In this document: in pieces, positions 30,144 to 40,070 of the stretch
How the letters are laid out: the number at the start of each line of letters is the position of its first letter
How positions within the stretch are numbered: the first letter of the stretch is position 1
NCBI RefSeq assembly: GCF_008274825.1
Contig: NZ_CP030848.1
Location: 2,728,001 to 2,792,000, forward strand
Direction of reading: 5' to 3'
DNA length: 64,000 nt
From: Sphingobacterium hotanense
GTDB lineage: Bacteria; Bacteroidota; Bacteroidia; Sphingobacteriales; Sphingobacteriaceae
Notes under the pieces: model-generated
The model's input: the letters and a program-made list of their open reading frames with translations, nothing else
The model's database searches: none
Told to the model about the DNA's origin: nothing
Made by a program: the position numbers and the translations under genes

Positions 30144-30213
30144 AAAGTTAAATAAAGTAGTAGCGTTTCATTTAAATGTTAACAAATGTTAAATGGAATA
30201 TTAAAGCGCTATT

Positions 30214-30229
30214 CGGCACAGAACTTGAT
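30214..30229 (+). promoter_or_regulatory. sigma-54-like promoter of the first small-RNA candidate
   Basis: CGGCACAGAACTTGAT keeps the GG (30215-30216) ten bases from the -12 G (30227), the exact sigma-54 spacing. The -12 pair is GA rather than GC, which lowers confidence. The second copy at 40056-40070 has the same spacing. Confidence 0.45.
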
Positions 30230-30238
30230 ATTATCTTA

Positions 30239-30311
30239 CTAAATTTCATAATTTAGGTTAATAATTGGTTAGTTAAGACTCCTAGAGCTCCCCGCTTTAG
30301 GAGTTTTTTTT
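30239..30311 (+). ncRNA. candidate small RNA, copy 1
   Basis: Predicted transcript of about 73 bases. The core 30245-30276 is identical over 32 bases to 40042-40011 and includes AATTTAGGTTAATAATTGG with a repeated GGTTA word. It ends in an intrinsic terminator: arms 30278-30288 and 30294-30304 (11 bp, one G-T) with loop TCCCC and a T-run to 30311. The second copy has a different stem but the same loop, so the fold is kept while the sequence changes. The start point is inferred from the promoter-like motif. The hairpin may also end the efflux operon. Confidence 0.6.
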
Positions 30312-39970: not shown

Positions 39971-40045
39971 ATAAAAAAAGAAAAGCTTGTAATCGGGGAG
40001 ATTACAAGCTTTAACTAACCAATTATTAACCTAAATTATGAATAC
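39971..40045 (-). ncRNA. candidate small RNA, copy 2
   Basis: Minus-strand partner of the locus at 30239-30311. The 32-base core 40042-40011 is identical to copy 1. The terminator has a perfect 12-bp stem (AAGCTTGTAATC, 40011-40000 with 39994-39983), loop TCCCC, and a T-rich tail to 39971. The stem sequence is unrelated to copy 1 but the loop is the same. Its tail runs up to the end of the GIN gene, so the hairpin could also terminate that gene in the other direction. Confidence 0.62.
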
Positions 40046-40055
40046 TAAGTAAGTT

Positions 40056-40070
40056 ACAATCTCTGTGCCA
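40056..40070 (-). promoter_or_regulatory. sigma-54-like promoter of the second small-RNA candidate
   Basis: On the minus strand TGGCACAGAGATTGT has GG at 40069-40068 and the -12 G at 40057, ten bases between. The -24 box is perfect (TGGCAC); the -12 pair is GT rather than GC. The predicted start is near 40045. An alternative sigma-A reading uses the TTG and the conserved TAATTTAG. Confidence 0.5.

Follow-up and report, generated by a model that had tools for sequence, protein, structure and literature searches.

What is the element that occurs twice, on opposite strands, in the 64,000-nucleotide stretch analyzed here (the window)? The two loci share an identical 32-base core (30245-30276, + strand; 40042-40011, - strand) and, upstream of it, GGCACAGA (30215-30227; 40069-40057), with a TTG beginning 10 nt after the GG. 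At each locus there is a hairpin followed by a T-run: AAGACTCCTAGAGC[TCCCC]GCTTTAGGAGTTTT in copy 1 (30275-30307) and AAAGCTTGTAATC[TCCCC]GATTACAAGCTTT in copy 2 (40012-39982). The stems of the two hairpins are unrelated in sequence, and the TCCCC loop is the same in both. Core, spacing, loop, unlike stems, and T-run are all as first described at both loci. The predicted fold of both copies consists of a free 5' end and a hairpin, with z scores of -3.4 (copy 1) and -3.9 (copy 2). An ABC-2 permease gene lies upstream of copy 1, and copy 2 sits between genes for a DUF2807 protein and a DbpA-type helicase. We assigned the following features, each with the evidence behind it.

30215..30228, + strand: sigma-54-like -24/-12 element of copy 1 (GGCACAGAACTTGA), from sequence; predicted start at ~30240
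30240..30311, + strand: small RNA copy 1, predicted ~70 nt, from the family's conserved 5' end and the terminator
30247..30270, + strand: copy 1 seed CATAATTTAGGTTAATAATTGGTT, whose CAT is predicted to pair with AUG, from near-invariance in bacterial and phage copies and from SusC-leader pairing
30275..30307, + strand: copy 1 terminator hairpin, 14 bp, loop TCCCC, from folding and covariation
40056..40069, - strand: sigma-54-like element of copy 2 (GGCACAGAGATTGT), from sequence; predicted start at ~40044
39974..40044, - strand: small RNA copy 2, predicted ~70 nt, from sequence and the family's conserved 5' end
40017..40040, - strand: copy 2 seed, same as the copy 1 seed, from sequence
39982..40012, - strand: copy 2 terminator hairpin, 13 bp, loop TCCCC, from folding and family alignment

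A small RNA family with a conserved seed and a covarying hairpin

The initial annotation treated these loci as a two-copy family, a count that proved far too low. In the source genome, pattern matching (up to 3 mismatches) found 10 places, BLAST and an anti-seed pattern added 2, and a covariance model built from the BLAST and pattern copies gave 13 matches. A second covariance model found a diverged copy at 852,993. The proposed covariance-model search of Sphingobacteriaceae recovered the family in 156 of 201 genomes at an E value of ≤0.01, and it was present in all 35 Sphingobacterium genomes searched, at 8 to at least 25 copies each. Tandem clusters of 2 to 3 copies spaced 170 to 330 nt apart occur in L149 (988, 1195, and 1501), L147, L157, and L183, and the source genome has tandem copies at 3,111,036 and 3,111,304. 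Every one of the 60 distinct bacterial copies examined lies between genes. We considered a small antisense open reading frame starting from the conserved ATG and rejected it, as the frames had a median of 11 codons and no shared sequence.

Outside Sphingobacteriaceae, a class-wide search returned few, single, weak matches, in 19 of ~380 genomes at an E value of ≤0.05. Some of these retain the TTCAT..TTTAGGTT layout with a terminator after it and are possibly distant relatives. Diverged look-alikes, CTCATAACAGGTTTATATTTGGTTAG and TTCATAGTTTAGGTTTTAGGTAATTAA, each followed by a hairpin, were seen in genus g14 (L365, L366, L367, L370, and L373) and family f12 (L181, L368, and L369), and possibly represent distant relatives or independent start-antisense RNAs. 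Kinship with Flavo-1 or other Rfam families, a comparison suggested at the outset, was not borne out: Rfam 15 gave no relevant family match at the gathering cutoff or at an E value of ≤10 (chance hits only), and the Flavo-1 covariance model gave no match.

The family has a simple layout: a single-stranded 5' seed of ~24 nt, CAUAAUUUAGGUUWAUAAUUGGUU, then a hairpin that is usually an intrinsic terminator, in an RNA predicted to be ~65 to 70 nt long. The seed (CATAATTTAGGTTWATAATTGGTT) is nearly invariant across Sphingobacterium, phages, and Pedobacter-type genomes (our inferred label for genus g15). The stems covary, with changes on both sides at all 10 modelled pairs (71 matches, 64 distinct); 93% of cells pair versus 72% in shuffles, and 139 cells are doubly changed versus 44. 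The original reading of a family of small RNAs, each with a terminator at its 3' end, is supported, and we regard a real, selected family as close to certain.

Conservation of both fold and loop with changed stem bases had been taken as the mark of selection on an RNA. The fold is kept in this way, as the covariation shows; the loop is not universal in the family. Of 63 strict terminator hairpins in the 1.26 Mb of genome sampled, window included, 1 has UCCCC, and elsewhere in the family the loop is CCCAU (Pedobacter-type copies), GCCA, or, in phages, GUGA or GCUC. UCCCC is a lineage feature. The suggestion that a C-rich loop pairs with Shine-Dalgarno sequences also fell away, given that the loop changes between lineages and that GGGGA, its partner, is present in 0.2% of gene Shine-Dalgarno windows. 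GGGGA was found in 0 of 30 SusC leaders of the source genome.

Signals predicted to place the 5' end near the seed

We compared the sequences upstream of the 60 distinct bacterial copies, among which related copies are not independent. A TAnnTTTG box lies 13 to 15 nt before CATAAT in 12 of them (background, 0.8%), and this spacing would start the RNA at or just before the seed. A GGCA-N8-G sigma-54-like element lies upstream of the seed in 25 (background, 4 to 5%). Its GG is mostly 27 to 34 nt before the seed; in a subset it is 51 to 60 nt away, implying a longer leader there. For the two copies in the window, the sigma-54 reading predicts a start 4 to 7 nt before CAU. The frequency of these sites, together with the one rpoN gene of the source genome, favors the sigma-54 drive suggested initially. 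The alternative offered with it, a sigma-A promoter using TAATTTAG, was rejected: the octamer lies inside the seed, downstream of the TAnnTTTG box in the 12 copies that have one, and is also retained in copies behind a tRNA.

The tRNA-linked copies, seven Pedobacter-type and ~13 on viral contigs, have their seed 4 to 13 nt after a tRNA T-arm/acceptor strand, one of which cmscan scored as a tRNA. The start signals are unrelated in kind, yet most appear from sequence to place the 5' end near CAU. In the Pedobacter-type loci L171 and L186 to L190, a long tRNA-like RNA with an intact acceptor, TGTAGGA/TCCTACA, immediately precedes the small RNA, at ~8 to 125 nt before the seed. The one in L188 is 115 nt long, scores only 31 bits, and was missed by ARAGORN. 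A separate element, TGTTAA, sometimes doubled (TTAACAAATGTTAA), lies within -90..-30 in 33 of the 60 bacterial copies versus 3.6% of genes (in the window at ~30178-30192). It is possibly a regulator site.

Predicted targets and prophage copies

The complement of the seed, ACCAAUUAUWAACCUAAAUUAUGA, resembles a Bacteroidetes translation start, AUG included. A search of the source genome for the full-length anti-seed with up to 3 mismatches found no sites besides the RNAs themselves, so targets would be partial matches. We computed duplex energies for 965 called genes in 1.26 Mb of the source genome, with start codons from a simple model. Leaders of 29 SusC genes averaged -13.2 kcal/mol, and the remaining 936 genes averaged -10.4 kcal/mol (P of ~1e-6). 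The SusC-minus-others difference was -2.8 with the real seed and +0.08 ± 0.56 with 60 shuffled seeds. In the source genome (30 SusC leaders) and in G156 (15 leaders), all 150 mononucleotide- and all 150 dinucleotide-shuffled seeds were weaker than the real one (z, -5.6 to -7.3). The effect was smaller in the Pedobacter-type genome G101 (z, -3.2 to -3.6), where at least 1 of 150 dinucleotide-shuffled seeds did equally well. Two blocks are enriched in SusC leaders, TAACCA (33% versus 4%) and AAATTATG (20% versus 1.6%). Even the best individual targets predicted were of moderate strength, and non-SusC genes accounted for some of the strongest duplexes. This computed pairing with SusC leaders supports the earlier view of a trans-acting small RNA.

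We consider it probable that the loci belong to a multicopy, trans-acting small RNA family of Sphingobacteriaceae that blocks translation of SusC/PUL transporters, and SusC/PUL translation starts are its likely main targets. In the mechanism we infer, the seed would pair with mRNAs of outer membrane SusC-type (PUL) transporters over both the AUG and the unstructured stretch before it, and this pairing would block ribosome loading. Copies would probably respond to differing conditions, as their starts appear to be set by sigma-54-like promoters, housekeeping promoters, or, probably, excision from tRNA transcripts. Prophage copies in tRNA arrays would probably tune the same host surface genes.

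We weighed three other explanations. A less likely one accepts the family as real and has the seed target other mRNAs, or translation starts generally, with SusC leaders just lying near the consensus. A generic resemblance to starts would explain why BLAST of the seed against phages lands on the starts of unrelated flavophage genes, and several strong predicted duplexes do lie at non-SusC genes. However, shuffled seeds of equal composition have no SusC preference, and the TAACCA block, which lies upstream of the AUG, is ~7-fold enriched in SusC leaders.

We think it improbable that the seed mainly serves to bind a protein or processing enzyme, or is the target of an RNA sponge, and does not pair with mRNA. 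Pairing of a small RNA with mRNA usually needs less than ~24 nt of conserved sequence, and conservation here is tighter than that. A protein of this kind has a precedent in RbpB, which binds FopS RNAs at their 5' part (PMC11697453). Against this, no RRM protein was found in the source genome, and the seed's complementarity to SusC starts is sequence specific. A dispersed repeat, mobile DNA element, or recurrent terminator with no RNA function is scarcely credible. Copies are many and dispersed, some are in tandem, and prophages carry them, as such an element might be expected to appear; but conservation is limited to the seed and the fold, stems and flanks diverge with covariation, unrelated start signals sit at fixed distances from the seed, and some phage hairpins adjoin a tRNA with no T-run.

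The exact 23-nt core is present in 42 IMG/VR contigs, several of them 50 to 58 kb. For one viral contig, the terminase matches a gene of a Sphingobacterium genome at 100% identity, and that prophage carries an RNA copy (L361, 7510-7444) flush with the next tRNA. At least some of the core-bearing viral contigs are Sphingobacterium prophages. Some phage hairpins, that of L361 included, run directly into a tRNA and have no T-run. For L361 this suggests release by tRNA processing, and the arrangement indicates that the hairpin is not conserved for termination alone. Flavophage BLAST matches of the seed were discarded as further copies, being mostly sense gene starts that lack a hairpin. On a viral contig of this set (IMGVR_UViG_2791354870_000002; L198, 8080-8325, - strand), a permuted tmRNA that scores 61.6 bits with Rfam RF04321 (cutoff, 47) adjoins a small RNA copy.

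Prophage small RNAs that lower porins are known (IpeX, PMC12197685), so control of surface receptors is a fair guess, though no more than a guess, at what the phage copies do. By this analogy, the copies might conceivably serve superinfection control, although we hold this to be rather unlikely. A fuller and slightly more doubtful version is that prophage tRNA arrays carry a host SusC-silencing RNA, processed by tRNA enzymes, that lowers receptors and so excludes other phages. If true, the phage copies and the Bacteroidia look-alikes would make start-codon-antisense RNAs a phylum-wide form of surface control.

Comparison with known systems

The way of life of Bacteroidota depends on a choice among dozens of SusC/SusD systems for sugar uptake. 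To our knowledge, essentially all that is known of how this choice is controlled after transcription comes from Bacteroides. Our results suggest the same logic in soil- and plant-associated Sphingobacteriaceae, here with no RbpB, with sigma-54-like promoters, and with prophage copies. The family also offers a readily testable seed and target set.

The closest parallel is FopS of Bacteroides thetaiotaomicron, which has 14 paralogs, each with a single-stranded 5' seed and a terminator, and was shown experimentally to pair close to the start codon of SusC mRNAs and repress their translation, an action that RbpB antagonizes (PMC11697453). The family described here is likewise multicopy and ~65 to 70 nt long, with a 5' seed, a terminator, and computed SusC-start pairing. 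FopS is bound by RbpB, whereas the source genome gave 0 RRM_1 hits (the control, Bacteroides ihuae, was positive). FopS has been reported in Bacteroidaceae only, with its sequence also in a phage, and uses canonical promoters (PMC11697453). Those are sigma-ABfr promoters; here, 12 of 60 copies have TAnnTTTG, 25 of 60 have a sigma-54-like element, and others are tRNA linked or have no assigned signal. We do not file the family as FopS, since no RRM protein was found and promoters differ. By analogy, it appears to work like FopS.

GibS of Bacteroides (PMC7366714) also has a conserved single-stranded 5' seed that pairs across start codons of metabolic mRNAs. Unlike this family, it is single copy and ~145 nt long, with two seeds, extra hairpins, and another promoter motif. 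Flavo-1 (Rfam) is another RNA motif that recurs in intergenic regions of Bacteroidetes, set apart by its covariance model. IpeX, from an E. coli prophage (PMC12197685), resembles the phage copies, as we propose them to act, in being phage encoded, processed from a longer transcript, and able to lower an outer membrane porin; it differs in its unrelated sequence and phylum, in lying outside tRNA arrays, and in not being a copy of a host small RNA family. In their start signals, finally, the sigma-54-like copies resemble sigma-54-dependent small RNA genes: at the level of sequence they appear to have a GG-N10-G[C] element ~12 nt ahead of the predicted 5' end, and the source genome has rpoN.
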